NCBI GenBank assembly: GCA_015233135.1
Contig: JADFYH010000014.1
Location: 1 to 63,680, forward strand
DNA length: 63,680 nucleotides
Source of the DNA: Deltaproteobacteria bacterium
GTDB taxonomy: Bacteria > UBA10199 > JADFYH01
Direction of reading: 5' to 3'
Shown here piece by piece: positions 2,430 through 57,902 of the stretch. The position numbers and the translations under genes are program-made. The notes beneath the pieces were generated by a model. It was not told the origin of the DNA, made no database searches, and was given only the letters and a program-made list of their open reading frames with translations. Numbering within the stretch: position 1 is the first letter of the stretch; the number at the start of each line of letters is the position of its first letter.

Positions 2430-3299
2430 ATGTCAGTGTTGGTCAACAAAAACACCAAAGTCATGACCCAAGGGATCACTGGAAAAACGGGTCAATTTCA
2501 TACCCAACAATGTAAAGCCTATGGCACACAAATGGTGGCCGGAGTCACTCCCGGTAAAGGCGGCCAGGCGTTTGAAGGAATTCCTATCTTCAATTCGGTA
2601 GCCGAGGCCAAGTCAAAAACCGGCGCCAATGTTTCGGTGATTTATGTGCCTCCTCCTTATGCCGCGAAGGCCATTTTAGAGGCGGTGGAGGCCGATCTGG
2701 ATTTGGTGGTTTGTATTACCGAAGGCATTCCCGTCAACGACATGATTCAAGTGAAGCGCAGCATGCAAGGGAAACGCACTCGTCTCATCGGACCGAATTG
2801 CCCGGGGATTATTACTCCCGGAGAATGCAAGATTGGAATCATGCCAGGGCACATTCATCGTCCCGGAAAAGTAGCTGTGGTCTCGCGTTCCGGAACCCTT
2901 ACCTACGAGGCGGTGGATCAGGTGACCAAGATGGGCTGGGGACAATCCACCTGCATTGGCATTGGTGGAGACCCGGTCAATGGAACCAATTTTGTGGATT
3001 GCCTTAAATTATTTAATGAAGATCCAGCCACTGAGGCGATGGTGATGATTGGTGAAATTGGAGGCTCTGCCGAAGAAGAAGCGGCGGATTACATCAAACG
3101 ACACGTAAAAAAACCTGTGGCCGGATTTATTGCGGGCATTTCGGCCCCTCCCGGGAAACGCATGGGGCACGCGGGTGCCATCATTGCGGGGGGAAAGGGT
3201 ACTGCAAAAGATAAAATTGCCGCCCTGGAATCCGCCGGAGTAAGAATAGCCAGAACCATTGCGGAAATTGGATTGGCTCTTAAAGAAATATATTCCTAA
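2430..3299 (+). CDS. sucD: Succinate-CoA ligase subunit alpha
   Basis: Alpha subunit of succinyl-CoA synthetase. It binds CoA in its N-terminal Rossmann domain ([17 protein letters not shown], residues 9-25) and carries the phosphorylated histidine in the C-terminal domain, here in the [10 protein letters not shown] segment near residues 245-254. The 289-residue length matches the family. It follows sucC in the usual beta-alpha order, separated by a palindromic repeat. ATG start with GGAAT/AAGGA-like sequence a few bases upstream. Confidence 0.97.
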
Positions 3300-3301
3300 A
3301 T

Positions 3302-3413
3302 CTCCTCCCCTTAAGGTAAGGGGAGGTTGGGAGGGGTTATGTGTATTGGATTTCATAGAACATAACTCCTCCCGAAATTGTTCGCACAATTTCCCTCTTA
3401 TCTTAAGATGGGG
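3302..3413. repeat. Palindromic repeat, family A, between sucD and ndk
   Basis: A second copy of the family A element. It starts CTCCCCTTAAGGTAAGGGGAG (imperfect hairpin), contains GAGGGGTTATG paired with CATAACTCCTCCC, and ends with a degenerate TCTTAAGATGGGG arm. The left third is almost the reverse complement of the right third of the copy at 41941-42034. It starts 3 bases after the sucD stop. Confidence 0.7.
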
Positions 3414-7194: not shown

Positions 7195-8832
7195 ATGTCC
7201 AGTCAAAAATTCATTTCTGAAGAACCTCTCGTTAAACTCGAGGCCACAATTCGCGACCCTTATGATTTGGCCGTCGCGACTGCGCGCACCTGTTATTCTT
7301 CGCAAGGGATTATTCGTGTAGAGGATGTGCGTAAAGATGAGCGGGCCAAACAGCTTCGCGATAAAATCGCGCAATCCACGCGTGATGCAGGTCACCTCAC
7401 TACCCGTCAGCATGCGCATTTCGTGTTTTCGCTGCAAAAGGTTTCGCGTCATTTTGTCTGGAGTTTTTTACATTCGCATCCCTTTTACAATTCGGAACAA
7501 GTGAGTCAGCGTTATGTGAAAGTAAAAGCGGAGAATTGGGCGGTTCCTCCCTTGGAGGAAAAGCCGCGAACTATTTATGAGCAGGCGGTGCGGGAACAAA
7601 CGGTCGATTATCAGAGGCTCATCGATCTGCTTTTGCCTTATGTAGGAGAGGCTTATTATTCCATCTTTCCCATCCGTCGAAAATGGGAAGACAAATATAA
7701 AAGCACGGTTGCAAAAAAGGCCTATGAGTTGGCGCGCTATGTCTTGCCTGTGGCGACGCACAGCTATCTTTACCATACGGTTTCAGCGGTGACTTTGCTG
7801 CGTTATCAGCGTTTGGTGAATCTTTTTGACACGAGTCTGGAACAAAAAATTGTCGTTCAAAAAATGTTGGAAGAGGTTTTGAAGGTGGATCCTGAATTTG
7901 GAAAAGATTTTTCAGAGGCTTATCCTTTAGAGGAAACTCCGGAGTGGAAAATGTTGAATCAGTTTGGAAAGGGATTATCATCCTCTTCCCTTGATGGACA
8001 GGAAGCTCTTCCCCTCTCCCTTGAGGGGAGAGGGCAGGGTGAGGGTGCAAACACTCGCCAATTCATTCGCGAATTTGATGTCTCTCTCGAGGGCCACGTC
8101 TCAAAACTAGTTGATTACAAAGTCCATGCGCAAGCTACGGTGGCTCAATCCGTTCGAGAAGTGTTTGGGCTGACCAAGGCGCAAATGAGCGACGAAGTGG
8201 CCTTGGATCAACTTCTAGATCCCTCAAAAAATCCTTACCTGGCGGAGACGCTCAATGTAAACACGCTCTCCAAACTCTCGCGCTGCATGGTGCACGCTCA
8301 TTATACCTTTCGTAAGAAGATTTCTCACAGCGCGGATAGTCAGGATCAGCGGCATCGCATGACACCGGCTTCGCGCCCCATCTTAGAGACGCATTATACG
8401 GGGGAACCCGATTATATAGTTCCAAAGCTCATCGCAGGGCGGCCCGAAGTTTTAGACCTGTATCAAAGGTCTATGGAGAAAGCCTTTCGAGCGATCAATC
8501 GGCTATTGGAGGAGGGCGTGAAGGCAGAGTTCGCGCTTTATCTATTGCCCAATGCCTTTCCCATTCGTTTTGAGGAGTCGGGAGATTTATTGAATCTGCA
8601 TCACAAGTGGCACACACGCGCCTGTTACACGGCGCAAGACGAAATTTTTTATGCCACGATCGATGAAATTGTGCAGGTGAAAGAACTTCATCCAGCACTT
8701 GCTTCAAAGATCTTGGCCCCTTGTTATATTCGCAAACATGCAGGGCTAAAACCTGTTTGTCCAGAAGGAGAGCGATTTTGCGGAACTAAGGTTTGGGAGA
8801 AGGAAATTGGGGAGTATGAGAGGGTTTTATAA
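7195..8832 (+). CDS. ThyX-family protein with two ThyX-like halves
   Basis: FAD-dependent thymidylate synthase family, but 545 residues long where a classical ThyX has about 220-250. The first half holds a ThyX-type core: ARTCYSS near residue 30, HAHFVFSLQKVSRHF near 75-90, SEQVSQRYV near 101-109 and ARYVLPVATHS near 180. The second half repeats the pattern with VHAHYTF and SQDQRHRM near residues 368-388 and FALYLLPNAFPIRF near 445. The canonical RHR-x7-S flavin/dUMP motif is not intact in the first half (HSH in its place), and the second half has RHR in an unusual setting. A palindromic repeat is inserted in frame between the halves. Thymidylate synthesis is therefore likely but not certain. 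Confidence 0.8.
   Translation: MSSQKFISEEPLVKLEATIRDPYDLAVATARTCYSSQGIIRVEDVRKDERAKQLRDKIAQSTRDAGHLTTRQHAHFVFSLQKVSRHFVWSFLHSHPFYNSEQVSQRYVKVKAENWAVPPLEEKPRTIYEQAVREQTVDYQRLIDLLLPYVGEAYYSIFPIRRKWEDKYKSTVAKKAYELARYVLPVATHSYLYHTVSAVTLLRYQRLVNLFDTSLEQKIVVQKMLEEVLKVDPEFGKDFSEAYPLEETPEWKMLNQFGKGLSSSSLDGQEALPLSLEGRGQGEGANTRQFIREFDVSLEGHVSKLVDYKVHAQATVAQSVREVFGLTKAQMSDEVALDQLLDPSKNPYLAETLNVNTLSKLSRCMVHAHYTFRKKISHSADSQDQRHRMTPASRPILETHYTGEPDYIVPKLIAGRPEVLDLYQRSMEKAFRAINRLLEEGVKAEFALYLLPNAFPIRFEESGDLLNLHHKWHTRACYTAQDEIFYATIDEIVQVKELHPALASKILAPCYIRKHAGLKPVCPEGERFCGTKVWEKEIGEYERVL
8011..8046 (+). repeat. Family B palindromic repeat inside the ThyX-like gene
   Basis: CCCCTCTCCCTTGAGGGG followed by AGAGGGCAGGGTGAGGGT, the same element as at 51042 and, in the other orientation, 28196. 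It lies within the coding sequence and reads LPLSLEGRGQGEG without breaking the frame. It falls at about residues 272-285, in the linker between the two ThyX-like halves where an insertion would be tolerated. Confidence 0.85.
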
Positions 8833-8911
8833 TTTTGACTCCCCCGTGTTCATAAGGCCCAGAGTTTTTTGATTGTCCTCCCTCTTAAGACTCGCTAAAA
8901 AACTTCACTTT

Positions 8912-11644
8912 ATGAAAAACAAAAAAATTTTACTAAGTCTTTGTCTTCTGCTCACCCTTTCCTTTGCCAATTCTGGCTGTAAACGTCTGCGGCATCTTTT
9001 TACTCATAAAAAAGAGACTAAACAGGAAGTTCCTAAGCAAACCCCGATGGATGCCCAATCTCCTACAAAGCCTTCTGAGCCCCCTCCCCAGGCAGGGACT
9101 GTTCAAACTCCAATGCAGATGCCCCCTATTAGTCCCATTAACCCTGCTCAAAATAGTTTAGGACTGCAAAATCCACCTCCCCCCCCAGACAATTTGGAGG
9201 CCTCCCCTCCTGTAAATACCACTCAAAACACTGCAGAATCTGCAGTTGCCTTACCTGAGGTAGGGGGTGCTATTTCGGTGTTTGCGGGTAATCCTAAAAG
9301 TGTGGCCGAGGGCTCGTTGTTTTTAGTGGAAGATGCCCAAGCAAGTTCGGTGAGTGGAAAAACACTCCGCTATCAGTGGTCTGTATCTCAGGGCTCGGTT
9401 GAAAAAATGAAGGTGATTGAGGGAACAAGCCTGCAGGGGGTTTTCAAGGTAGGAGATGTGAGCGAAATGTCCACCTTTAGTCTAAAACTCACGGCAAGTG
9501 ATGGCAGCGCCCAATCTTCCTCTGAGCTAAAAGTGACTGTGTTCCCTGCAAAACTCGCGCGGGTTCAGCATTTGGGAGGGATGGCCCGTAAAATTGAGAG
9601 TTTGGAAAATCAAATTTTTATCAGCCGTGGACGAACGATTGAGGTGTACGACGCGGGATTGAATTTAGTCAAAAAAATCGATCTGGACTCCCCTATCCTG
9701 GAAATCTCAGCCTTTGCCGCCAGTGGTAAAAAATATCTCTACAGTTTATCCGAGGCGGGAGATTGGTCTTTGGTGGATGTGAACGATTTGGAAAATCCTC
9801 AGATTTCTTTGGTTCAAAAAGTGGGAAGTTTTTTAAAAAATATCCATGTCTCTTCTTTTTCTGGCGAACTTTGGGCCACTACTACTGAACGGGATAGCGC
9901 CACTTTATGGAACTTGAAAGACGTGGCCCATCCACAGGCGAAATTTGTTTTCAAGGGCCCTTATCAAGGGGTCCAAAAAATATTGCTCTCCGGAAAAAAT
10001 GTTTACCTGGTCGACACCAAGGCTATTCATACCTTGGATGCTTCAACGGGTATTTTGCAGGCCTCGATTCCTTTATCGGGCAAAGTGAATCACCTGGATG
10101 TCGTCTCTCTCAAAAATAAAAACTACCTCTTACTTGCCTTGGGAAATACTACGGATACGGCAGTGAGATCAGAGGCGGGCCTGCGTTTGTTTGAAATCGG
10201 GGCCAGCGGGCGTCTCCTAGCCGAAAAACGGTTTAACTTGAAGGGAAACCTGCCTGTCTTACAATTTGTTGCCGTGCAAAATGCCCAGTTTATCCTGGGA
10301 GTTCAGGAAGGGCAAAACGTCAATTTAAAGGCCTTTGATCTGGAGAAAGGGATAGAATTTCCCTTGATTGTACCAACTGATCTTAAATTGGCTCGTCTGC
10401 AGGATTTATTTGTCCAGGCCTCTGCAAAAGAGACCGACCTTTTGCTTACGGATGGAGCCTCTTTCAAGCGATTAAAGATGGTCACTTCCGCGGCCTCTAT
10501 TAAATTGGATGCCTTGCAAAGCAGCTATTCTGTTATTTTTGCGGGGTCTATGAAGTTGAATGGCGAAAATCTATTGATGAGTGATTTTGGAAGCGGCATG
10601 GATGCGGTGCTTCCCGCCTTCTACGAAATTTCCACACAGGATTTCTCAAAACTCAATCCTCTGGTGCTGAATGCGCCTGCTTATTTTTCGGATTTTGTCA
10701 CTCTGCCTACTTCCAAACAAAGTCTGGGAATTTTGCTCTCTGCCGAGGCCCCAGCAAAAACGGCGGAAAGTTTAAGTGCCGAATCCCAGGCAGAGTCTCA
10801 AAAACAAAGCAACGAAACCCTCAATATAGAAGGAAGCCTGGCCTTATTTGCCAATGGAGTAAAACCACTCAAGATCAGCGAAAAAAGTTTGACTCATTTT
10901 GGCCTATCCCAAGAACAGGCCGCCTCTCGGGCCTTTGCGCTGGGTTATTATAAAAGCGACACTCAATTTATTTTGGGAATTGCCGTTGGTAAAACTCTGG
11001 GCGCCGGTTTGAAAACGGGGCTCTATTTGCTCAAATTCAACTCGGAACAAGAGCTGCTGGCCTCTTTAAAAGAGGATTTAAGCAAAAAGATGACTCAAAT
11101 TCCTTTGAGTGATGCGCGGGATGTCCGTTTCTCAAAGGATGGGAAATGGGCCCTGGTTGCCGCTGGGAGCGAAGGGTTGGTGCTGATCGATTTGGAAAAG
11201 AACCAGGTGAGCCTCAAAAATAATCCCTTCCAAGGTCTACTCGCGGACCGCGTTCAGATTTCGCACGATCAGCAGAAAGTTTTTGTATCTTTTTTATCTC
11301 CTTCGCTGGGCCAAACTCCCCCTCAGTCCAAATTGCAGATTTATTCTTATGATCAAGGCAAACTCGGCCAATGGGGAGGAATCGAGGGCCTGAGCGGGGT
11401 GACTCTTCCCTATGCCCAACGCAGCGGAAACTTTGCCTTGTCCGAGGACGACCTCTTTTTATTTATCGCCAATGGCAGCCAGGGCTTATCCGTTTACAAT
11501 GTAAGCGACGCCGCAGCCCCGGTCTTGATAGAACACCTCGCCACGTTTGGAATGACCGCTGATGTAGTGGTGGGTGAAAAATTCAAGAAAATCTACATGG
11601 CCGATCTGGTAAATGGCCTAGAAGTGGCGGAGTTTGGGTTTTGA
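8912..11644 (+). CDS. Large beta-propeller lipoprotein with PKD-like domain
   Basis: A 910-residue predicted lipoprotein. The ATG at the chosen position gives a clean signal (MKNKK, hydrophobic run, then FANSGC with the lipidated Cys near residue 23); an earlier TTG would add 13 residues and weaken the signal. A Pro/Gln-rich linker runs to about residue 120. A PKD/Ig-like domain follows (LRYQWSV ... LKLTASDGSAQS, about 130-220), then a long array of WD/LVIVD-like blades, for example KYLYSLSEAGDWSLVDV and DGKWALVAAGSEGLVLIDL. It probably sits on the outer membrane or in the periplasm. Its function is unknown. The last 44 bases are copied at 13942-13983. Confidence 0.75.
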   Translation: MKNKKILLSLCLLLTLSFANSGCKRLRHLFTHKKETKQEVPKQTPMDAQSPTKPSEPPPQAGTVQTPMQMPPISPINPAQNSLGLQNPPPPPDNLEASPPVNTTQNTAESAVALPEVGGAISVFAGNPKSVAEGSLFLVEDAQASSVSGKTLRYQWSVSQGSVEKMKVIEGTSLQGVFKVGDVSEMSTFSLKLTASDGSAQSSSELKVTVFPAKLARVQHLGGMARKIESLENQIFISRGRTIEVYDAGLNLVKKIDLDSPILEISAFAASGKKYLYSLSEAGDWSLVDVNDLENPQISLVQKVGSFLKNIHVSSFSGELWATTTERDSATLWNLKDVAHPQAKFVFKGPYQGVQKILLSGKNVYLVDTKAIHTLDASTGILQASIPLSGKVNHLDVVSLKNKNYLLLALGNTTDTAVRSEAGLRLFEIGASGRLLAEKRFNLKGNLPVLQFVAVQNAQFILGVQEGQNVNLKAFDLEKGIEFPLIVPTDLKLARLQDLFVQASAKETDLLLTDGASFKRLKMVTSAASIKLDALQSSYSVIFAGSMKLNGENLLMSDFGSGMDAVLPAFYEISTQDFSKLNPLVLNAPAYFSDFVTLPTSKQSLGILLSAEAPAKTAESLSAESQAESQKQSNETLNIEGSLALFANGVKPLKISEKSLTHFGLSQEQAASRAFALGYYKSDTQFILGIAVGKTLGAGLKTGLYLLKFNSEQELLASLKEDLSKKMTQIPLSDARDVRFSKDGKWALVAAGSEGLVLIDLEKNQVSLKNNPFQGLLADRVQISHDQQKVFVSFLSPSLGQTPPQSKLQIYSYDQGKLGQWGGIEGLSGVTLPYAQRSGNFALSEDDLFLFIANGSQGLSVYNVSDAAAPVLIEHLATFGMTADVVVGEKFKKIYMADLVNGLEVAEFGF

Positions 11645-12556: not shown

Positions 12557-12607
12557 TTTTAGAACTTAATATTGATTTTTATTTCAGAGTCCCGCAAGAT
12601 AGGTTCC

Positions 12608-13909
12608 ATGCTTCGTAGCCTTTATCAAAAACTTTTGGATTGGAAGGATAGCCTCAGACGCAAACCTCTAATTTTGCAGGGGGCCAGGCAGGTTGGGAAA
12701 ACCTATTTGATAAAGGAGTTTGGGACTAAAGAATATGCGGATGTCGCTTATTTTAATTTTGAAGAAAAACCCAAGCTTGTTTCTCTGTTTGAAAATGAAC
12801 TCAGTCCAGCTGCCCTTATTCAATCTCTCCAAATAGAATTGCAAAAAAAAATTGAGCCTCAAAAAACCTTGATGATTTGGGATGAAGTACAAGTTTCTCC
12901 CAACGCTTTAAACAGTCTTAAATATTTTTATGAAAACAATCCCGAGTATCATTTGATTTGCGCGGGCTCTCTTTTAGGAATTACCCTAGGGCAGCAAAAA
13001 TCTTTTCCGGTGGGGAAAGTAAATTTTTTGAATTTGTATCCCTTAAGTTTTGTAGAATTTTTGCAGGCCCTCGGATTTAGCGAATTGCTCTCTCTACTCA
13101 AAGAAAAAAAAGATTTTTCGCCTCTTCCAGAATTGTTTCATCAAAAGCTCATCGCCCAATTAAAACTTTATTATTTTTTAGGAGGTATGCCTGAAGTTGT
13201 AAAAAACTATCTCCAAAACCAGGATTTACTTGAAGCGCGAACTATTCAACAAGAAATACTTAGATCCTATTTACTTGATTTTTCAAAGCATGCGCAATCT
13301 GTGGATGTCATTAAGATTCAACAAGTCTGGGGACAAGTTCCTTCTCAATTGGCTAAAGAGAATAAAAAATTTTCCGTCTCAGAGCTCCATAAAAATGCAC
13401 GACTCAGAGAATACCGAGTGCCTATTCAATGGCTTTTAGAAGCGGGTTTGCTGCAAAAAGTTGGCAGGGTTAGTCTTCCTAAAATCCCATTAAATGGATA
13501 TTTACAAGAAGGTTTTTCTAAACTTTATCTGTTAGATACAGGTCTACTGGGTGCACTTTTGGAATTAACCCCTAAAACTCTTATTGAGGGAAATGAACTG
13601 TTCACCCACTTTCACGGCGCCCAGGTTGAAAATTTTGTTGCTCAAGAATTACTTACTTATTGCGAGAAACCAATTTATTATTGGAGCAGCCAAGGAAGAG
13701 CCGAAGTTGATTTCCTTGTTTCTTTAGAAGAAGAAATTATTCCCATCGAAGTAAAGGCCGGGGAAAATACACGATCAAGAAGCTTGGGCGAATATGTAAG
13801 GAATTACCATCCTGAAAAAGCATTGCGCTTTTCTTTGAGAAATTATCACTTTCACAACGGGGCATCGGATATTCCCCTGTATGATGTCTTCCGGATTTTA
13901 AGCTTGTAA
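12608..13909 (+). CDS. AAA-family ATPase with DUF4143 C-terminal domain
   Basis: Predicted cytoplasmic ATPase of the common AAA_14/DUF4143 family, whose function is unknown. The Walker A motif is GARQVGKT at residues 25-32, the Walker B region is LMIWDEVQ near 86-93, and a sensor-type CAGSLLG follows near 119. The C-terminal domain contains YLLDTGLLGALL, then the nuclease-like WSSQGRAEVDFLV ... IPIEVKAGE (near 358-385), a PD-(D/E)xK-like arrangement typical of DUF4143. An upstream TTG start is possible, but the ATG has GATAGG 6 bases upstream. Such genes are mobile, variably present accessory genes; here it is followed by a copied 42-base fragment. Confidence 0.85.
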   Translation: MLRSLYQKLLDWKDSLRRKPLILQGARQVGKTYLIKEFGTKEYADVAYFNFEEKPKLVSLFENELSPAALIQSLQIELQKKIEPQKTLMIWDEVQVSPNALNSLKYFYENNPEYHLICAGSLLGITLGQQKSFPVGKVNFLNLYPLSFVEFLQALGFSELLSLLKEKKDFSPLPELFHQKLIAQLKLYYFLGGMPEVVKNYLQNQDLLEARTIQQEILRSYLLDFSKHAQSVDVIKIQQVWGQVPSQLAKENKKFSVSELHKNARLREYRVPIQWLLEAGLLQKVGRVSLPKIPLNGYLQEGFSKLYLLDTGLLGALLELTPKTLIEGNELFTHFHGAQVENFVAQELLTYCEKPIYYWSSQGRAEVDFLVSLEEEIIPIEVKAGENTRSRSLGEYVRNYHPEKALRFSLRNYHFHNGASDIPLYDVFRILSL

Positions 13910-13930: not shown

Positions 13931-13994
13931 CAAGTTTATTTGCCGATCTGGTATGGCCTAGAAGTGGCGGAGTTTGGGTTTTGCAAGTTTATTT
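13931..13994. repeat. Copied 42-base end of the propeller lipoprotein gene, flanked by 11-bp direct repeats
   Basis: Bases 13942-13983 repeat 11600-11643 (the last codons and stop of the lipoprotein gene) with only a 2-base deletion. This copy is bounded on both sides by CAAGTTTATTT (13931-13941 and 13984-13994), like a target duplication. The second direct repeat contains the stop codon of the PLP dehydratase gene, which stays intact. Confidence 0.85.
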
Positions 13995-26391: not shown

Positions 26392-27228
26392 CTATTTTTT
26401 TAAAGCCTTTTGGGCATCCCGATAGCCCATTTCATAAGCGGCTTTGATTTTTTTTGGGTCTCGGGTGGTGCGCCCCACGGATAATTTTCCTTCCGGTCGA
26501 ATCAGAATTACTTTTACATTTGCAGGGGGATTTTCCAGCCAATCGAGCGTGTCGTTATAAATTTTCCAGCGTTGGTTCAAGGCCTTGGCCAGATTTGGAT
26601 AGCGAGGAAAGAAAAGGTAATTCAGAAAACCCACGGGATTGGGCTTTTTGCGATAGCCTTTGGGCCGGGTACCTATCACTATGATTTCGTCACATTTTTC
26701 TTGCAGCGCTTTTTCGATGGGAATGGACGCCGAAACACCTCCGTCGACATGACGTCGTCCATTTAAAATAACCTTTCGGCGATAAAGATAGGGCATAGCG
26801 CAAGAAGCGCGGAGATGCTCGACTAGTCCGGGCTCGCGGGCCTCGAAATAAACGGCCTGACCACTGCTGCAATCGGTGGTGTTGATATAAACGCGAGCCT
26901 CGCCTTTTAAAAATTCCTCCAGGGGCAGGGGAATTTCCTTTTTGAGAACCTCATCGAGTAAATAGTCGACATCCACAATATTTTTTTTGCTGAACAGGTT
27001 TCGATAGCGAATAAAGCGGGGCCCTGCCAAATATTCATGCAGAATTTTGAAATTACGGATGGGATGCCCCCCTACAAAATTTATGGCGCAGGCGGCTCCT
27101 GCGCTGGTACCCGCAATCACGTCAAAGTCACGCAGTCCGAGGTCGTGCAAGGCCACGAGGGCACCAGAGGCATAGGCCGATCGCATTCCTCCGCCTTCTA
27201 TGACGAGTGCTTTTTTTGGTATTGGCAT
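26392..27228 (-). CDS. Patatin-like phospholipase
   Basis: Acyl hydrolase with a Ser-Asp dyad. The oxyanion loop EGGGMRSAYASGAL is at residues 11-24, the nucleophile Ser42 in GTSAG (40-44), and the catalytic Asp in HVDGGVSASIP near residue 155. It belongs to the bacterial YjjU/RssA-like group and may act on membrane phospholipids. The ATG overlaps the TAA of the upstream acyltransferase gene (TAATG), so the two are translationally coupled, hinting at phospholipid acyl-chain turnover. A longer frame without a matching upstream start signal was not used. Confidence 0.9.
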   Translation of the reverse strand: MPIPKKALVIEGGGMRSAYASGALVALHDLGLRDFDVIAGTSAGAACAINFVGGHPIRNFKILHEYLAGPRFIRYRNLFSKKNIVDVDYLLDEVLKKEIPLPLEEFLKGEARVYINTTDCSSGQAVYFEAREPGLVEHLRASCAMPYLYRRKVILNGRRHVDGGVSASIPIEKALQEKCDEIIVIGTRPKGYRKKPNPVGFLNYLFFPRYPNLAKALNQRWKIYNDTLDWLENPPANVKVILIRPEGKLSVGRTTRDPKKIKAAYEMGYRDAQKALKK

Positions 27229-28829
27229 TATTTTCTCAACAATTTCAACGATACATCCAGTAATAATTTTTCCCATTCTTCAGGCGCCGCAGGATGGAGT
27301 ATCAATTGCACCAAGGCTTCCTGATATCCCCTCCAAAGGCTGTGGGGTAAAGCATATAGACGATCGAGGAGGATAAAGGGAAGATTATTTTCAATTGCGT
27401 CTTCGCGTTCCAAATATTGCTCCAGTTGATCTCCATTTTCGGGGCAATCGATCACAAACCGCTCAATTAACAATTTATGTCGGCGGGTGGTCTTTTCCAA
27501 TTCACGGTCTATCTGCCCCTGAATGGCTTCCAGCGTGGCCAAATAATTATGATGGGCTTCCTTGCTGCATTCTTGCCCTTGGGGATTTTCAAGCTCGACA
27601 TCGGGCAATTCCACTTTCCAAAGTTTTCCCAAGCGGTAAAACACTTCACTTTCGGTTTGAATTTTAAAAGAACCCTTGGGTCCCACGGTGGCACTGCCAT
27701 CAATACCGATAAATAAAACCTGCAGGCTTTCGTTTTTTTCTCTCAGCTTCAGGGCGGCATCCAGCACGAGTTGGGCGGTGCCTAATTTGAGATGGCCACG
27801 AGGGTCTGTTAATTTTTTTTTGGAAAATGTGGTGTAATAACCTGCGTCAATTCTGTTGTTTTCCGAATCAAGCAGGCCCCAAGCTCGCGTGCCCTGCGGA
27901 TATACGGCGACCTCCACATCCGTATCCGTCAGCTTTTGCGCCGCTTCCTGCATAGCCAGCCAGCCTTTGCCTTCTTGACGATTGATAAAAATCATGCCGG
28001 CCTTTTGAATACACTGGCCGACACCCAACCAGGAATAAAAAAGCGGATTATCAATAAAATGATCTTTGGCGGCAATAAAGCGGGGACGCAGATGCCTCCC
28101 CTTGTTTTGAAGTGCCCCCAAGGCAAAAAAGTTGAGGGCAAAATCGAGATAACTTTTGTGGTTGAAGACGAGCAGGAGTTTTCCGTCTAATTTTTCACCC
28201 TCACCCTTACCCTCTCCCCTCAAGGGAGAGGGGACACACTCTAGTGAAATCTGCGCCCGCTGAACAATACGCGCTCCCCAGATGCGGGCGAAGGCATCAA
28301 ACATGTCTATCCCTTTTTGCCCTTCAAAATTTTGCATGGCAAAAATAGCCAATTTGGCGAGCGTCGCCGTATCGATGGCAGATAAAATAAGAGGGCTAAA
28401 TATTTGCCGAGTTGCCTTCCCCTGGCGATAATCAATTTTCTCAAAACTCACCCGCCTGGCCTCTTGAGGGAAGGGGCGCCTGAAAGATCCCAGCCCTCGG
28501 TAGTAAGTCTCAAAAAACTCACCCGGTTCAAGATTATCGATTTTATAAACCCATTCGCAAAAAGCCTTGCGAAAAGAATAGCGATGCAAACGATTGAGGA
28601 CAGAAAGAATAGCCAAGGCGAAGAAGCAAAAAGCCCTGACAGGATGTGCATGATAAAAATCGAACAATGAAAAAATGAAAAGACCGCTAGCAAGCAGTGT
28701 ATCTCGCCAGGGAGAGAAAAAATATTCCCAATGTCCCAGTTTGCTCAGATAGGATGAGCGGTCCTTTTGTGGAAAGAGAAAAGAGAAGATCTTTAATAAA
28801 AGTGGCAAGTAAATCAGGCTTAAAAACAT
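27228..28829 (-). CDS. PlsC-type glycerolipid acyltransferase carrying an in-frame repeat
   Basis: Membrane-bound acyltransferase of about 533 residues. Hydrophobic segments near 1-15 and 40-75 precede the PlsC domain, which has the catalytic NHKSYLD (HX4D) near residue 220 and YPQGTR near 300 in place of the common PEGTR. It probably acylates lysophospholipids or glycerol phosphate; the length suggests a GPAT-like or 'glycerol acyltransferase' relative. A palindromic repeat adds about 13 residues (PSPLRGEGKGEG) at residues 199-212, just before the catalytic motif. It is coupled to the patatin gene downstream. Confidence 0.82.
   Translation of the reverse strand: MFLSLIYLPLLLKIFSFLFPQKDRSSYLSKLGHWEYFFSPWRDTLLASGLFIFSLFDFYHAHPVRAFCFFALAILSVLNRLHRYSFRKAFCEWVYKIDNLEPGEFFETYYRGLGSFRRPFPQEARRVSFEKIDYRQGKATRQIFSPLILSAIDTATLAKLAIFAMQNFEGQKGIDMFDAFARIWGARIVQRAQISLECVPSPLRGEGKGEGEKLDGKLLLVFNHKSYLDFALNFFALGALQNKGRHLRPRFIAAKDHFIDNPLFYSWLGVGQCIQKAGMIFINRQEGKGWLAMQEAAQKLTDTDVEVAVYPQGTRAWGLLDSENNRIDAGYYTTFSKKKLTDPRGHLKLGTAQLVLDAALKLREKNESLQVLFIGIDGSATVGPKGSFKIQTESEVFYRLGKLWKVELPDVELENPQGQECSKEAHHNYLATLEAIQGQIDRELEKTTRRHKLLIERFVIDCPENGDQLEQYLEREDAIENNLPFILLDRLYALPHSLWRGYQEALVQLILHPAAPEEWEKLLLDVSLKLLRK
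28196..28233 (-). repeat. Family B palindromic repeat inside the acyltransferase gene
   Basis: CACCCTCACCCTTACCCTC followed by TCCCCTCAAGGGAGAGGGGA on the plus strand, the reverse complement of the elements at 8011 and 51042. In the acyltransferase frame it reads PSPLRGEGKGEGE. The reading frame used differs from that in the ThyX-like gene, yet is also stop-free. Confidence 0.85.
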
Positions 28830-29013: not shown

Positions 29014-29220
29014 CTTGAGTTCCGCAGATTTTAGTAAGAAGCCACTCTGAAAAGTCCTCTCTCCCTTGAGGGGAGAGAGTCAGAGAGAGGGTGATCCTGA
29101 GTGCACTAGAAATACCCCTCACCCTGACCCTCTCCCTCAAGGGGAGAGGGGAAATGCTTTATAGATGGGTACTTGCCAAGAATGAGCAAAAAATGATTCT
29201 TAAAATCTGCGGAACTCAAG
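29014..29220. mobile_element. 207-bp MITE, copy 1, with terminal inverted repeats and TSD
   Basis: Both ends are CTTGAGTTCCGCAGATTTTA (as inverted repeats), flanked by TCTTAA at 29008-29013 and 29221-29226, a 6-base target duplication. The interior holds two family B palindromes in opposite orientation and no gene. The same element lies at 52065-52271 in opposite orientation; by eye the two copies are identical along their full length. The insertion duplicated the stop-codon region of the gene at 29223 without breaking it. No transposase is encoded, so mobility must be supplied in trans. Confidence 0.9.
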
Positions 29221-38863: not shown

Positions 38864-41800
38864 TTATTTACAATTCTTCGCGCTAATCAACACCGTCAAA
38901 TCCTGGAAGTCCGCCGCGGTACTGGTGGGATACTGAGACACATCCACTCCCAGTTCCATCGTGATAATGGATTCATTGGCGGCCAGTTTCACCTTCTTGG
39001 CACTCATATCGATGTAAGGTGCCAAACAGGTATTGAGGGATTTTTGTCCTCCAAAGCCTGCGATATTGGAAGGCGGATTGCTGCCATTTACCCAAATCAT
39101 GGTCTGATTTTTGTTCGTGGAATCGTAGGTCGAATTAAAGCTGCCATATTTTGCATTGGCCTTGATCATATAAACGGCAGGGGCGCTGGAGGCCACCGAT
39201 TCGGTAAATACCTCTCCTTCGTAAACAGGGGTATTGCTGAACATCCAGTTGTTGAAGTAGCTCCCATTGAGGGCACGATTCATTTTTACAGGAATTGCCG
39301 GCCCTCCGGCGCCATAAGTAATTTGATTACAGATTACCTTGATTTCGGAGTCGCAGTTTTTCCCAACGCTGACGGTCCCTGTAGAAGCATTGGTCACAAT
39401 GGGAAGCCTGCAGACACTAGGCGCTCCCGTGCAGACATTATTGCCTTCCACCTGACAGGTAGAAGAACATCCATCTCCACTGGTTCTGTTTCCATCATCA
39501 CAGGTTTCACCCGCATCGATTTTACCGTTACCACAGAGAAGGCTGCAGGTGCTGAGAGGAGAACCCGTGCAGGCATAGCCTGCCTCAACGGTGCAGGTGG
39601 AAGAGCAACCATCTCCATTGGTTTTATTTCCATCGTCGCAGGCCTCACCGGATTCCAGTTTGCCATTTCCGCACACAGGTGTGGGAAGTTTACAGACGCT
39701 GGGAGCGCCCGTACAGGTATAGTTGGGTTCCACCGTGCAGTTGGCACTACATCCGTCTCCACCGATTTGATTCCCGTCATCACAGGCCTCACCCGTTTCC
39801 ACCTTGCCATTTCCGCATTTGGAGGGAGGCAGCGTGCACTTGCTGGGTGTGCCCGTGCAGGTATAGCCAGATTCAACGATGCAGTTCGAAGAACAACCGT
39901 CCCCGTTCACCTTATTTCCATCGTCGCAGGCCTCGGCGTTTTCTATCTTTCCATCCCCGCAAAGGTTGTTGCTGCTCACCAGGCAAGGATAGTCTATGGG
40001 CAAAGGAGGGGCACCTTTACAGGCGGCGATGGTATCTCCCGCGCAAGGGCCTGGAATATCTCCATGTTGCTGAATATGGGCACAGACGGCATTTTCGCTG
40101 ATCGAGATTGTATTATAAGGATTAGCCCCCGAACTGGTGTAGTGACAGATGCAATATTTTTTTCCGGCGATGTCACAAACGCTGGGCGCGCCCGAGCAGG
40201 CATAGTCCGTTTCAATCTGGCAGGTAGAGGAACAACCATCCCCGTTGTTTTTGTTTCCATCGTCACAAGCCTCGCCGGCTTCGATCTTTCCATTGCCACA
40301 AACAGGGGTGGGAATCGTTGGGGTACAGGTGCTCTTGGGTGACCCCGTACAAGTATAGTTTGCTTCTATTTTACAGCTTGAAGAACAGCCATCGTTACTA
40401 GCGACGTTCCCATCGTCACATTCTTCACCGCTTTCAAGAATGCCATTTCCGCAGATTGAACCGGGAATTTTACTGCAAGTGCTGAGAGGAGATCCACTGC
40501 AGGCCCAGCCTGTTTCAATCTGACAGTTTGAGGAGCAACCATCTCCATTGACCGTGTTTCCATCATCACAGGCCTCAGTGCCGGCCTTGTTTCCATCTCC
40601 GCAAACATTGGGCTTGATGCAGACACTGGGATTACCCGAGCAATTGTATCCAGGTTCTACGGTGCAATTGGAGGAACAACCATCTCCATTTTTGGAATTT
40701 CCATCGTCGCAAGATTCTCCCGTTTCTACGATTCCATTAGGGCAGACGGACGCAGGAGGGGGAATGAGTGTACATTTGCTGGGAGACCCACTACAGGTAT
40801 AGCCAGATTCTACGGTACAGGTAGAAGAACAGCCATCCCCATCTTTAGTGTTGGCATCGTCGCAAGCCTCCCCCTGATCGAGTTTTCCATTTCCGCAGAC
40901 GGGGACATAGATGGGGGCACAGACGCTCGGGTTTCCTGAACAGGTAAATCCGTTTTCGATTTGACAAGTAGAAGAACAGCCATCCCCGTTGTTGGTATTA
41001 CCGTCGTCACAGGCTTCACCTGCTTCGATGGCCCCATTCCCACAGACAGGAGTAGGAATGATTAAACTACAGCTACTCGGATTCCCATTACATTTATAAC
41101 CCGGTTCGACGGTACAATTGGAGGAACAACCGTCTCCATTGTTTTTATTTCCATCATCACATTCTTCACCGGTCTCAGGAATTCCGTTTCCACACACTTG
41201 GGCAGCCGTGGCGTCGATACAAGTGACTTGGCTGGTAGTATGGTCAGTGTACTCCGAAGTAATGGTATAGCTTTTAGCTCCCACAATGTTGCTAGAAAAT
41301 CGGATGAAATCAACAGGGTCGGGCGAGGGGGTGGTGGGAATCGTATAATCCGTAATATCAATAAAGGTTCCCGATTTGGTGCCTGTCGCATCGCTATAAA
41401 CCGATTGACTATTAATTTGAATGCCTGAAACTTTTTCACCATTATCGGGAGTAAAGCTCACTTTCATGCGGGCAATAATAGGGTGGCTGAGGCAGGCCTT
41501 GCTGACATAAACTCCCAGGAGATCTTTTCCATTGGAATGAAAATTGTTGCAGGACATCGAAACGCAGGAGCCTGACATCGCAGTGGTAATGGATCGGGTC
41601 ACTTGGGCAACATCCGATTTTCCAACGGAGGTGATTTGATTTCCATTGATCGTAAGGGTTGCCGAACCCATGTCAAAGGTTTTTACCCCGTTGGGGTCTT
41701 GGCCCTGATCAATCGCTCGGAGGGCATATTCGATGCCTGCCAGGGCGTAGTAATTCGCCCTTTCCTTGTTCGTGTTATTCGCCGTTTCCGTTGAGGAATC

Positions 41801-41905
41801 GTTCACTACACTATTGCTGCTCATGGCAAAAAGGCCAAGAATCAGCAAGCCCAGCACGATGGCAACGGAGATGAACCCACCCTCTTTTCTATTTAAATTT
41901 TTCAT
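38864..41905 (-). CDS. PilX-like minor pilin fused to eleven DUF4215 cysteine-rich repeats
   Basis: A 1013-residue surface protein. Residues 1-65 are a PilX-type N-terminus: short charged lead, GGFISVAIVLGLLILGLFAM membrane helix, then RANYYALAGIEYALRA. From about residue 238 to 845 come eleven copies of a roughly 42-residue repeat with six cysteines, pattern CGNG...GEACDDGN...GDGCSS.C..E..Y.C.G.PS.C, known as 'Myxococcus cysteine-rich repeat'. Between copies seven and eight sits a CHYTSSGANPY...AHIQQHGD motif, also found in secreted bacterial proteins. A beta-rich C-terminal domain ends the protein. It is the last gene of the minor-pilin operon and a strong candidate for pilus-tip adhesin or PilY1-like role (inference). 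Confidence 0.85.
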   Translation of the reverse strand: MKNLNRKEGGFISVAIVLGLLILGLFAMSSNSVVNDSSTETANNTNKERANYYALAGIEYALRAIDQGQDPNGVKTFDMGSATLTINGNQITSVGKSDVAQVTRSITTAMSGSCVSMSCNNFHSNGKDLLGVYVSKACLSHPIIARMKVSFTPDNGEKVSGIQINSQSVYSDATGTKSGTFIDITDYTIPTTPSPDPVDFIRFSSNIVGAKSYTITSEYTDHTTSQVTCIDATAAQVCGNGIPETGEECDDGNKNNGDGCSSNCTVEPGYKCNGNPSSCSLIIPTPVCGNGAIEAGEACDDGNTNNGDGCSSTCQIENGFTCSGNPSVCAPIYVPVCGNGKLDQGEACDDANTKDGDGCSSTCTVESGYTCSGSPSKCTLIPPPASVCPNGIVETGESCDDGNSKNGDGCSSNCTVEPGYNCSGNPSVCIKPNVCGDGNKAGTEACDDGNTVNGDGCSSNCQIETGWACSGSPLSTCSKIPGSICGNGILESGEECDDGNVASNDGCSSSCKIEANYTCTGSPKSTCTPTIPTPVCGNGKIEAGEACDDGNKNNGDGCSSTCQIETDYACSGAPSVCDIAGKKYCICHYTSSGANPYNTISISENAVCAHIQQHGDIPGPCAGDTIAACKGAPPLPIDYPCLVSSNNLCGDGKIENAEACDDGNKVNGDGCSSNCIVESGYTCTGTPSKCTLPPSKCGNGKVETGEACDDGNQIGGDGCSANCTVEPNYTCTGAPSVCKLPTPVCGNGKLESGEACDDGNKTNGDGCSSTCTVEAGYACTGSPLSTCSLLCGNGKIDAGETCDDGNRTSGDGCSSTCQVEGNNVCTGAPSVCRLPIVTNASTGTVSVGKNCDSEIKVICNQITYGAGGPAIPVKMNRALNGSYFNNWMFSNTPVYEGEVFTESVASSAPAVYMIKANAKYGSFNSTYDSTNKNQTMIWVNGSNPPSNIAGFGGQKSLNTCLAPYIDMSAKKVKLAANESIITMELGVDVSQYPTSTAADFQDLTVLISAKNCK

Positions 41906-41940
41906 ACGCCCCCCTATAAATGAATCCTCTCCTTAATTTC

Positions 41941-42034
41941 CCCCTCTTAAGCTAAGAGGGGGTCAGGGGGCGTTATGGCAATGACATCCCATTGCACCAT
42001 AACCCCTCCCAACCTCCCCTTAGCTTAAGGGGAG
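41941..42034. repeat. Palindromic repeat, family A, between pilin genes
   Basis: CCCCTCTTAAGCTAAGAGGGGG, then GTCAGGGGGCGTTATGG, then CCATAACCCCTCCCAACC and CCTTAGCTTAAGGGGAGG. The left half is the reverse complement of the right half of the copy at 2320-2414, and the right half matches the left half of 3302-3413 in reverse. It interrupts the otherwise tight minor-pilin operon between the fimT-like and PilX-like genes. Confidence 0.75.
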
Positions 42035-42068
42035 GAGACTACGGAAAAAGACTTTAGTCTCAAGAGTC

Positions 42069-51002: not shown

Positions 51003-51041
51003 ACTTATTTTTTCCTTTGCCGATAATTACATCCCAAAAGT

Positions 51042-51079
51042 CCCCTCTCCCTTGAGGGGAGAGGGTCAGGGTGAGGGTG
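51042..51079 (+). repeat. Family B palindromic repeat after oppF
   Basis: CCCCTCTCCCTTGAGGGGAG followed by AGGGTCAGGGTGAGGGTG, the solo element in its cleanest form. It lies between the oppF stop (51085) and the start of the MITE-hit lipoprotein gene. It could act as a hairpin terminator for the opp operon. Confidence 0.8.
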
Positions 51080-51084
51080 AAAAA

Positions 51085-52064: not shown

Positions 52065-52271
52065 CTTGAGTTCCGCAGATTTTAAGAATCATTTTTTGCT
52101 CATTCTTGGCAAGTACCCATCTATAAAGCATTTCCCCTCTCCCCTTGAGGGAGAGGGTCAGGGTGAGGGGTATTTCTAGTGCACTCAGGATCACCCTCTC
52201 TCTGACTCTCTCCCCTCAAGGGAGAGAGGACTTTTCAGAGTGGCTTCTTACTAAAATCTGCGGAACTCAAG
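52065..52271. mobile_element. 207-bp MITE, copy 2, with terminal inverted repeats and TSD
   Basis: The reverse complement of the element at 29014-29220, with no difference seen by eye. The ends are CTTGAGTTCCGCAGATTTTA and its inverse, and the flanks TTACCAG at 52058-52064 and 52272-52278 form a 7-base duplication. It is inserted between oppD and oppF in the opp transcript and holds two family B palindromes. Confidence 0.92.
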
Positions 52272-55498: not shown

Positions 55499-57100
55499 TT
55501 ACTCCAGCAACTTCCACTCCAATACATCTTCTCCACCCTTGTAAATCTTCACATTCTTAAATCGGGCGGAACGAACCAGCAAGGTCGGATTGGCGTACAA
55601 AAAAGTATAAGGTTGATCCTCGGCCACAATTTCATGAAAGCGCTGGTACAGGGCGCTGCGCTTTTCTTTGTCGAAGGTGGACCTCGCCTTCTCCAGAATT
55701 TCATCCACCTCTTCATTTTTATAACCCACAAAATTCGAACCTTTTTGATGTTGTTCATTTTCAATTTGAGAAGAATGCCAGACCTGGTAAGGATCATCAT
55801 CAAAACTCGAACTCCAACCCATGATCACTGCATCAAAATCCCAGGTCTGAGCGCGATGAAATAAAATAGAGCGCTCCATGGGAATGATTTCCATTTTTAT
55901 TCCGGCCTTCGTGAAATCTTCCTTCAGAATGCTGGCCACATATTCGTGGGTGCGATTCCCGGTGCGAACCAGCAATTGAAATTCAAGTTTTACTCCGTCT
56001 TTGTCGCGTATGCCATCGCCATCGTGATCCGTCCAACCGGCTTCATCCAGAAGTTTGGCAGCCGCTTCGGGATCGTAGGGCAGGGGTTCTACCTTTTTAT
56101 TATAAGAGTCGCTTTGAAAAAAGAAGGGCCCACTAATCACCTTCGCCAGTCCATAGATCAGTTTGTCGACAATGGCCTGCCGATTGGAAAGCATCGTTAA
56201 GGCCTGCCGAACTTTTTTATCGTTAAATTGAGGCCTGCGAAGATTCCATCCCACATAATAATAAACCGGGGCATCGTAGTGGTGCTTTACAAAACGCGCG
56301 TTGAAATCCGGAGAATTCGTCTGCTTCATCCATTGGATGGGGCTGACATTCATCAGATCGATGAGGTCTTTTTTGAGGGCCATCAGGGCCACCGCGTCAT
56401 CGGTAATCACCTTAAACACAATCCCCTTAATTTGAGGAAAGCGCGACTTGTCCCAATAATCTTCATTTCGTTTGAGAACAATTTGTTTTCCCGCATCCCA
56501 GCGCTCAAACTGGAAAGGACCCGTGCCAATGGGCTTACGGTTGGCAGAATGGGTGTTAAAATCCTGGCCATCGTCATAAATATGTTGGGGAATAATGGGC
56601 AGACCCCCACAGAATTCCAGGGCCTTGAAATAAGGTTTGGCGTAAGTGAAGCGCACCGTATTTTTATCCAGTTTTTCCAGCTTGGAGATGTCTTTGTAAT
56701 AGTTGGAGAGGTGGAGGGTCTCGGGGTTCGGTTCCTGGATTTTTTTGAAGGAATAAAGAATGTCTTCGACCGTAAGAGGAAGCCCATCGTGCCATTGGAT
56801 ACCCTCTTTTAGATGAAAGGTATATTGCATCCCATCTTTTGAAACTTCCCAGGCCGAGGCCAAGCGCGGAATCCATTCCAGCGTTTCGTTATCACGGGCG
56901 ATGAGACTTTCATAAATGTACCCGTTGACCATCGAAGACGCAAAATCATTGGAAATCAACAAATTCAAATTAGTCGGATCCGCAGCCATATGCACGACAA
57001 GGATATTGGGATCTTTGGGGGCTTTGAAGGAAGAGCAAGACAGCGCTGTGAAAGTAAACAGCAAAATTAAAAATTTTATTGCACTAAGGTAAAATTTCAA
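55499..57100 (-). CDS. Peptide ABC transporter substrate-binding lipoprotein
   Basis: Periplasmic solute-binding protein family 5 (OppA/DppA), anchored as lipoprotein. With a TTG start the leader is MKFYLSAIKFLILLFTFTALSC, with Cys near residue 22 as lipidation site; AGGAG lies 9 bases before this TTG. An ATG ten codons upstream, overlapping the DUF4292 gene more, is the alternative. The SBP_bac_5 body shows NGYIYESLIARD, IQWHDGLPLTVEDILYSF and the later GTGPFQFERWD. An intact opp set (A-B-C-D-F) imports oligopeptides. Confidence 0.92.
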   Translation of the reverse strand: MKFYLSAIKFLILLFTFTALSCSSFKAPKDPNILVVHMAADPTNLNLLISNDFASSMVNGYIYESLIARDNETLEWIPRLASAWEVSKDGMQYTFHLKEGIQWHDGLPLTVEDILYSFKKIQEPNPETLHLSNYYKDISKLEKLDKNTVRFTYAKPYFKALEFCGGLPIIPQHIYDDGQDFNTHSANRKPIGTGPFQFERWDAGKQIVLKRNEDYWDKSRFPQIKGIVFKVITDDAVALMALKKDLIDLMNVSPIQWMKQTNSPDFNARFVKHHYDAPVYYYVGWNLRRPQFNDKKVRQALTMLSNRQAIVDKLIYGLAKVISGPFFFQSDSYNKKVEPLPYDPEAAAKLLDEAGWTDHDGDGIRDKDGVKLEFQLLVRTGNRTHEYVASILKEDFTKAGIKMEIIPMERSILFHRAQTWDFDAVIMGWSSSFDDDPYQVWHSSQIENEQHQKGSNFVGYKNEEVDEILEKARSTFDKEKRSALYQRFHEIVAEDQPYTFLYANPTLLVRSARFKNVKIYKGGEDVLEWKLLE

Positions 57101-57902
57101 ACGCAGCGTCTCCTGGCTTTTCTTCGACATTGATTTCCATGTTGGAATAATGAAGGCCCATTTCACTGCCTTGAGCGAAATCTTTCAACCAAATTTTATG
57201 GGGGAGGGCGATATTTTTGACTTTTACCCCTTCAAAGTTGGAGGCCTCATAACGAAAAAGGAGTCTGTTTTTTTGATAGGTCTCCAAGACGGTGACGCGC
57301 TTGAACTCTTCATCCCACAAATAACGGGTGGAGGCCCAAGAGATCCAGACCTGATTTGGATTTTCTGCAAACCTCGCAAAGCCAGGTTCAGTGGTTTCTG
57401 GAGGCAGAATCAGTTTTCCAAAAAGAAGCCCCAGGGTTTGGGCAATACTGGTTTGAAAGGGCAGGAATTGCCTCAGCAAATGGGGAGAAAGTTTTTCAAC
57501 CCGTTTTTTTTGGGCCTGCACATCCTGAAGCAGTAACTGTTCTCCATCCGATTTCAATAAAAATAAAAGCCCTCCCAGATCATCCAGACTTTCCAGGCTA
57601 AATCGATGGGGAAGTCGAATTTGCAGCACCTCCGTAGCGGAATAAGCGCGCCCTCGGGTCTTCAATTTAATTTCGGCCAGTCCTTGAAAGGAATTTACGC
57701 CCTCAAAAGCATTCAAGTAAGCCAGAAAATCCGATTTTATCTGGCTTTGTTCCGAAAGATTGGGGAGGCTCTGGATTTTTTTCTGGCTGGGAGCGCAGGC
57801 ACTTACAAAAAGAAATGTGAAGATTAGAAATATTTTTTGGATTAATCCCCTCTCCCTTGAGGGGATGAGGAAAAGCCGCAGGGTTTTCGGGAGAGGGTGC
57901 AT
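57084..57902 (-). CDS. DUF4292/LolB-like lipoprotein whose N-terminus comes from a repeat
   Basis: About 272 residues. The visible lipoprotein signal is GLIQKIFLIFTFLFVSACAP, with Cys near residue 36. The section AYLNAFEGVNSFQGLAEIKLKTRGRAYSATEVLQIRLPHRFSLE fits DUF4292/LolB-type lipid-binding folds, and LLFLLKSDGEQLLLQD follows. The first 20 residues (HPLPKTLRLFLIPSRERG) are translated from the palindrome at 57847-57898, so the natural start has been replaced or extended by it. It precedes oppA with a small overlap and follows the TPR lipoprotein gene. Confidence 0.75.
   Translation of the reverse strand: MHPLPKTLRLFLIPSRERGLIQKIFLIFTFLFVSACAPSQKKIQSLPNLSEQSQIKSDFLAYLNAFEGVNSFQGLAEIKLKTRGRAYSATEVLQIRLPHRFSLESLDDLGGLLFLLKSDGEQLLLQDVQAQKKRVEKLSPHLLRQFLPFQTSIAQTLGLLFGKLILPPETTEPGFARFAENPNQVWISWASTRYLWDEEFKRVTVLETYQKNRLLFRYEASNFEGVKVKNIALPHKIWLKDFAQGSEMGLHYSNMEINVEEKPGDAAFEILP
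57847..57898. repeat. Degenerate family B palindrome at the start of the DUF4292 gene
   Basis: CCCCTCTCCCTTGAGGGGAT, then a diverged middle GAGGAAAAGCCGCAGGG, then TTTTCGGGAGAGGGTG that pairs with the first arm. It occupies the first codons of the DUF4292 lipoprotein gene, providing its ATG and n-region. Confidence 0.65.

Follow-up and report, generated by a model that had tools for sequence, protein, structure and literature searches.

The double-domain ThyX-like gene at 7195-8832 of the window (the whole 63,680-nt stretch of DNA that was analysed) carries an almost perfect palindrome with a purine tail at the linker between its two halves. The question raised by this locus is whether these residues are part of an ordinary linker or were brought into the gene by a repeat, and if so by which one. 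A preliminary description had read them as a palindromic repeat inserted in frame, one of a set of coding insertions like the Rickettsia palindromic elements.

The element in the ThyX-like gene

The gene and the sequences in it are the following.
7195..8832, plus strand: double-domain ThyX-like ORF (FAD-dependent thymidylate synthase family), 545 aa, with Pfam Thy1 matches
8009..8051, plus strand: TM/PIT element, consisting of the hairpin CCCTCTCCC-TTGAG-GGGAGAGGG, the 2-nt linker CA and the third tract GGGTGAGGG; encodes aa 272-286
7982..8002, strand not given: possible decayed second copy CCTCTTCCCTTGATGGACAGG; among random genome 49-mers, 1.3% aligned locally with a score at least as high

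Each half of the protein matched Pfam Thy1, and the element lies in between. CCCTCTCCCTTGAGGGGAGAGGG at 8012-8034 is followed by CAGGGTGAGGG, and their in-frame reading is LPLSLEGRGQGEGAN (aa 272-286 of 545); the core CCCTCTCCCTTGAGGGGAGAGGG-CA-GGGTGAGGG (8012-8045) is translated as LPLSLEGRGQGEG. The extent given at first (8011-8046) was corrected to a unit of about 43 nt (8009-8051).

ThyX homologues were gathered in 46 class genomes and through a collection scan. The interval from TPEY to REFD spans 40 aa in the host protein versus 16-20 aa in 15 of 15 homologue loci, at least two of which are one gene taken from two collections, and the element peptide was present in 0 of these 15 loci. 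The in-frame insertion at the linker is thus borne out, with an extra segment of 20-24 aa (60-72 nt) in place of the 12-13 residues first proposed. This gain exceeds one 43-nt unit, and the putative decayed copy directly upstream (7982-8002) may account for the residues beyond one element, which is suggestive at the level of sequence.

Neither thyA nor a further Thy1 gene was detected in the 98%-complete genome, where the ThyX ORF is the only thymidylate synthase detected. The gene is therefore presumably functional with the insert, and the protein probably works despite it. The insert extends the linker that joins the Thy1 halves, and the protein probably tolerates it without making use of it. 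A phmmer search of ThyX against solved structures gave no match, and an AlphaFold model built from four sequences was unusable (pLDDT 38), so no structural claim was based on it.

A TM/PIT repeat dispersed through the genome

The element consists of a CCCTCTCCC/GGGAGAGGG hairpin and, after it, the mirror purine tract GGGTGAGGG, which is the layout of TM_ECO, formerly named PIT (potential intrastrand triplex) (Hoyne and Maher 2002; Holder 2015, PMC4666352). Compared to Table 1 of PMC4666352, the repeat is close to identical with E. coli TM_ECO no. 2, and CCCTCTCCCTTGAGGGAGAGGGTTAGGGTGAGGGT is an example of a TM_ECO repeat from that table matched in sequence and layout. It has been reported that TM repeats form triplexes in vitro, that E. 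coli K-12 has 23 copies with no transposon or mobile-element association, and that in E. coli they are always intergenic (PMC4666352). Matches spanning at least 80% of the unit were found in 4842 of 5426 E. coli genomes, with identities of 80-99% (90-95% being commonest for the best place), and the eight E. coli matches listed overlapped no annotated feature. For the single DNA strand a hairpin of -10.4 kcal/mol was predicted, with a modest z of -1.6 to -1.8, and four G tracts (GGGG AGA GGG CA GGG TGA GGG), as read from the sequence, fit a quadruplex pattern. A single strand of the hairpin and third purine tract could fold as a triplex or a G-quadruplex. The G-quadruplex-hairpin-duplex motif (Kaplan 2016) is probably the same TM/PIT repeat.

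In the 2.61-Mb genome, the 23-mer of the element occurred at 124 places when up to 3 mismatches were allowed (26 places had no mismatch) and at 0 places in the backwards control, which bears out the earlier view of the palindrome as a dispersed repeat. A profile of the unit detected 177 unique copies (114 per Mb) in a survey sample of 1.55 Mb without N (59% of the genome, with 72 kb of C2 masked), and 0 matches in the reversed-sequence control at the same cut-off of E<0.01; extrapolation gives about 300 copies for the whole genome. The motif was found in 31 of 46 genomes of the class, among which this genome has the most forward matches (109, the next having 20).

Three further features of the window, outside the ThyX-like gene, involve the repeat between genes or on a longer mobile unit.
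29014..29220: MITE of 207 nt; an inverted TM pair lies inside its 20-nt terminal inverted repeats CTTGAGTTCCGCAGATTTTA; duplicated target TCTTAA (6 bp)
51036..51080, plus strand: near-consensus single TM copy, intergenic
52065..52271: second copy of the 207-nt MITE, 99% identical, inverted; 7-bp target duplication TTACCAG

The 207-nt MITE was present in 14 copies in the 59% of the genome sampled (two of them in the window), 12 of the 14 had 5-7 bp duplications, and the TM pair on it is tails-inward. A classical element can therefore carry TM pairs; the genic TM copies lack the MITE ends. Around bare singles and pairs no target duplication was found above the shuffled-flank control, and 91 single copies showed neither an insertion-site motif nor a GTAG or CGTC tag in their flanks.

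Copies in opposite orientation within 60 nt of each other were arranged differently between and inside genes. All 31 intergenic pairs were tails-inward, as against 4 of the 12 intragenic ones, the other 8 being tails-outward, an arrangement seen in 0 pairs between genes (Fisher P 3e-6, on small pair counts in which some pairs share one gene). The tails-outward inverted pair might be a distinct mobile unit compatible with coding, built from the triplex motif, inserting peptides and weakly counter-selected in genes, a tentative idea that we consider rather doubtful.

Several other repeats were observed. A second dispersed palindrome family, CTCCTCCCCTTAAGCTAAGGGGAGGTTGGGAGGGG, also with a hairpin and a third purine tract, occurs at 2332-2416, 3293-3341 and 41938-42046 of the window. 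The first copy of an exact 31-nt direct repeat, ATGGCCTAGAAGTGGCGGAGTTTGGGTTTTG, ends at the stop codon of ORF 8873-11644 (11613-11643), and the second (13953-13983) lies just beyond ORF 12572-13909. A repeat protein, the 1013-aa minus-strand ORF 38864-41905, contains ten degenerate copies (about 135-161 nt each) at 39405-41198. In the MutL linker (aa about 350-360; L081:17154-18965) the peptide SPLNKGGWGG looks like a translated third type of palindromic repeat.

In-frame copies in conserved genes

With genes called by a simple codon-usage caller, 56 of the 177 copies were located 30 nt or more within ORFs, 36 ORFs in total, and a stricter filter kept 38 copies in 24 ORFs. The intergenic-only location, which is a habit in E. 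coli and not a part of the defining structure, thus does not hold here, and the set of coding insertions that the preliminary description had proposed is real, and genome-wide, in the 59% sampled. Copies inside genes were nevertheless far fewer than the 78% expected at random placement (P about 1e-40), with a density of 42 per Mb in coding sequence versus 592 per Mb outside (14-fold lower).

Most host ORFs match conserved families. Clear family matches were obtained, among others, for UvrA, UvrC, MutL, MutY, PriA, LeuRS, MetH, pyruvate dehydrogenase E1, a 2-oxoacid dehydrogenase E2, D-Ala ligase, ComEC, Lnt, QueA, PdxA, ATP sulfurylase and RNase E/G. Some genes have several copies: five in MetH (L203:12472-16179) and three in LeuRS (L202:2343-4991), at separate sites, and three in uvrA. 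Similarly, in-frame copies were found in ligA, leuA, trpE and other genes of the two class relatives examined. Truncation of the PdxA gene at its copy was considered and rejected, since the gene reads through from an in-frame start further upstream. In a 3816-aa ORF, five almost identical TM copies are clustered in alternating orientation, as if tandemly amplified in frame (G000 C26:26881-27220, L200).

Insertion into other genes was judged by comparison with homologues. UvrA has two separate inserts, one at aa 243-272 and one at about 471-508, both some 30 residues long or longer and neither present in the homologues (0 of 19); its class matches break at about 241/273 and 470/509. The UvrC pair (aa 494-527) is missing from most of 19 homologues, the linker itself being variable, and from solved UvrC structures. 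Solved structures of ATP sulfurylase are shorter at the insert, and the MutL homologues have a linker too variable to prove insertion. Two sites in the window had been named as companions of the ThyX copy (28196 and 57847), and the copies there are the following.
28192..28235, minus strand: in-frame TM copy (VPSPLRGEGKGEGEK); its host, ORF 27228-28829 (minus), encodes a protein with an acyltransferase domain
57844..57865, plus strand: partial TM copy; it precedes a lipoprotein-like signal at the outermost 5' end of ORF 57084-57902 (minus strand) and is not internal

The first is a true in-gene copy: its peptide occurs in none of the 19 homologues, most of them shorter by 7 aa at this point, and the net gain is about 7 aa (about 21 nt). 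The second, at the very start of its ORF, drops out of the set of internal insertions. The inserted length does not always equal the 43-nt element, being 60-72 nt in ThyX and about 21 nt in the acyltransferase. As far as alignment of homologues can tell, insertion is confirmed for thyX and uvrA, and uvrC and the acyltransferase agree with it, their linkers being variable; the homologues behind these comparisons are about 60-65% identical or less, this genome being the only one available from its family.

Intragenic copies occur on both strands and in all codon phases. It had been suggested that the palindrome avoids stops, and this did not hold: of six frames, full intergenic copies leave 3.5 open versus 3.6 for random 43-mers, and intragenic copies leave 4.5 open. 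The linker of the ThyX copy is 2 nt (CA) versus the commoner 3 nt, and the ThyX frame is open because of this, as a 3-nt linker before GGGTGAGGG would yield TGA in that frame. Among copies read in the ThyX frame with the GGGTGAGGG tail, 4 of 4 have the 2-nt linker, versus 27 of 78 intergenic copies. This pattern points to survival of compatible insertions, i.e., filtering, and not to a built-in stop-free design.

Spread of the repeat and comparison with known systems

We consider it highly probable (roughly 0.88) that 8009-8051 is a TM/PIT repeat which has spread in the genome in a REP-like manner and which survives in genes as a tolerated in-frame insert. Such a repeat would spread as a non-autonomous sequence, in singles and inverted pairs, and most insertions into genes would be lost, as suggested by the 14-fold lower coding density. 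The survivors would be those that keep the frame, bring no stop into the reading frame in use and fall where an insert is tolerated, for instance in a linker, leaving inserts of about 7-35 residues rich in Gly/Glu/Arg or Pro/Leu. The bare copies may move by a single-strand or replication-coupled route, which would leave no target duplication.

Other explanations have to be weighed against this. Linkers tolerate drift and those of the ThyX homologues are variable in sequence, so the segment might be an ordinary linker or low-complexity drift with a coincidental likeness to a palindrome. However, the exact 23-mer recurs at 26 places and never backwards, the unit also lies between genes and in all codon phases and on both strands of unrelated genes, and the homologues lack the residues, which makes drift hardly credible. 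A selfish Rickettsia-type element, adapted to coding sequence and inserting precisely with compatible frames, would behave alike, being palindromic, in frame and present in many unrelated housekeeping genes, and RPE-4 and RPE-6 have been classed as CGTC REPs (PMC3733652). The likeness noted earlier thus holds for in-frame coding insertion, but the sequence belongs to the TM_ECO/PIT family (Table 1 of PMC4666352), no CGTC or GTAG tag flanks the 91 single copies, and intergenic copies are open no more than expected by chance; we regard this origin as very improbable.

The only RAYT-like Y1 transposase of the genome (one Y1_Tnp gene, PF01797) could move the copies, as proposed for GTAG REPs. No target duplication is expected from HUH single-strand transposition, and the missing duplications fit this. 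On the other hand, no TM copy was found in the 3.2-kb locus of this gene (within about 1.5 kb), there is no GTAG-type tag, and TM repeats in E. coli are not associated with a transposase (PMC4666352), so that its involvement seems rather unlikely. It is less likely still that the insertions, instead of being simply tolerated, alter the activity of repair and replication proteins (UvrA, UvrC, MutL, MutY, PriA) and give rise to a mutator lineage with expansion of the repeat. Five of the 36 hosts act in repair or replication, LigA carries a copy in a relative, and for GTAG/CGTC repeats the same leaning has been reported and the same idea proposed (PMC3733652); yet the enrichment is weak (P about 0.03 at a 5% background and 0.002 at 2.5%, both backgrounds assumed), and the majority of hosts are metabolic genes. 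The preferred reading is a REP-like spread of the TM/PIT repeat, with tolerance of the surviving inserts.

The TM repeat is here a source of small added peptides, and peptides such as PSPLRGEGQGEG and TPHPNPLPQGERG should be recognised in annotation as encoded by the repeat. TM/PIT repeats are present in hundreds of bacterial genomes; those of E. coli have been described as lying between genes, with no connection to mobile elements. One lineage with TM copies in frame in dozens of core genes is thus a natural collection for studying repeat movement and the tolerance of proteins to short inserts. Palindromic repeats in uvr and other repair genes were already known from another repeat family, and this is a second such case. 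We found no report in the literature of TM/PIT repeats inserting into genes on this scale; repeats inside genes are known.

Compared with TM_ECO/PIT, the repeat here shares CCCTCTCCC, a short loop, GGGAGAGGG, a 2-3 nt linker and GGGTGAGGG, and inverted pairs occur in both. It differs in number and place, with about 114 copies per Mb and a third of them inside ORFs, whereas the 23 copies of E. coli K-12 are all intergenic, and in that one paired form sits on a MITE. Terminal inverted repeats with target duplications, the marks of MITEs, were found on the 207-nt units, but the bare ThyX copy and most TM copies have neither. GTAG and CGTC REPs lie inside genes of, e.g., Opitutus terrae and Rickettsia conorii (Di Nocera 2013, PMC3733652). 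They are likewise short palindromic repeats in unrelated conserved genes and often occur as dimers coding for 20-30 aa, and uvrA is one of their hosts; the TM family has a third purine tract and no GTAG or CGTC tag. The GTAG REP/RAYT system is recognised by a repeat-flanked RAYT gene, RAYTs flanked by other TIRs being also allowed (PMC3733652), and the Y1 gene here is not flanked by the repeat. As in the Rickettsia palindromic elements, a palindromic repeat is inserted in frame in unrelated conserved proteins and is absent in relatives, cleanly so in ThyX and UvrA; sequence family (its class being set by the TM match) and organism differ, RPE-1 is longer (PMC3733652), and most copies here are intergenic. 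In-frame palindromic repeats are thus known already from the GTAG/CGTC REPs and the Rickettsia elements, and what is new is the occurrence of TM/PIT repeats as coding insertions.
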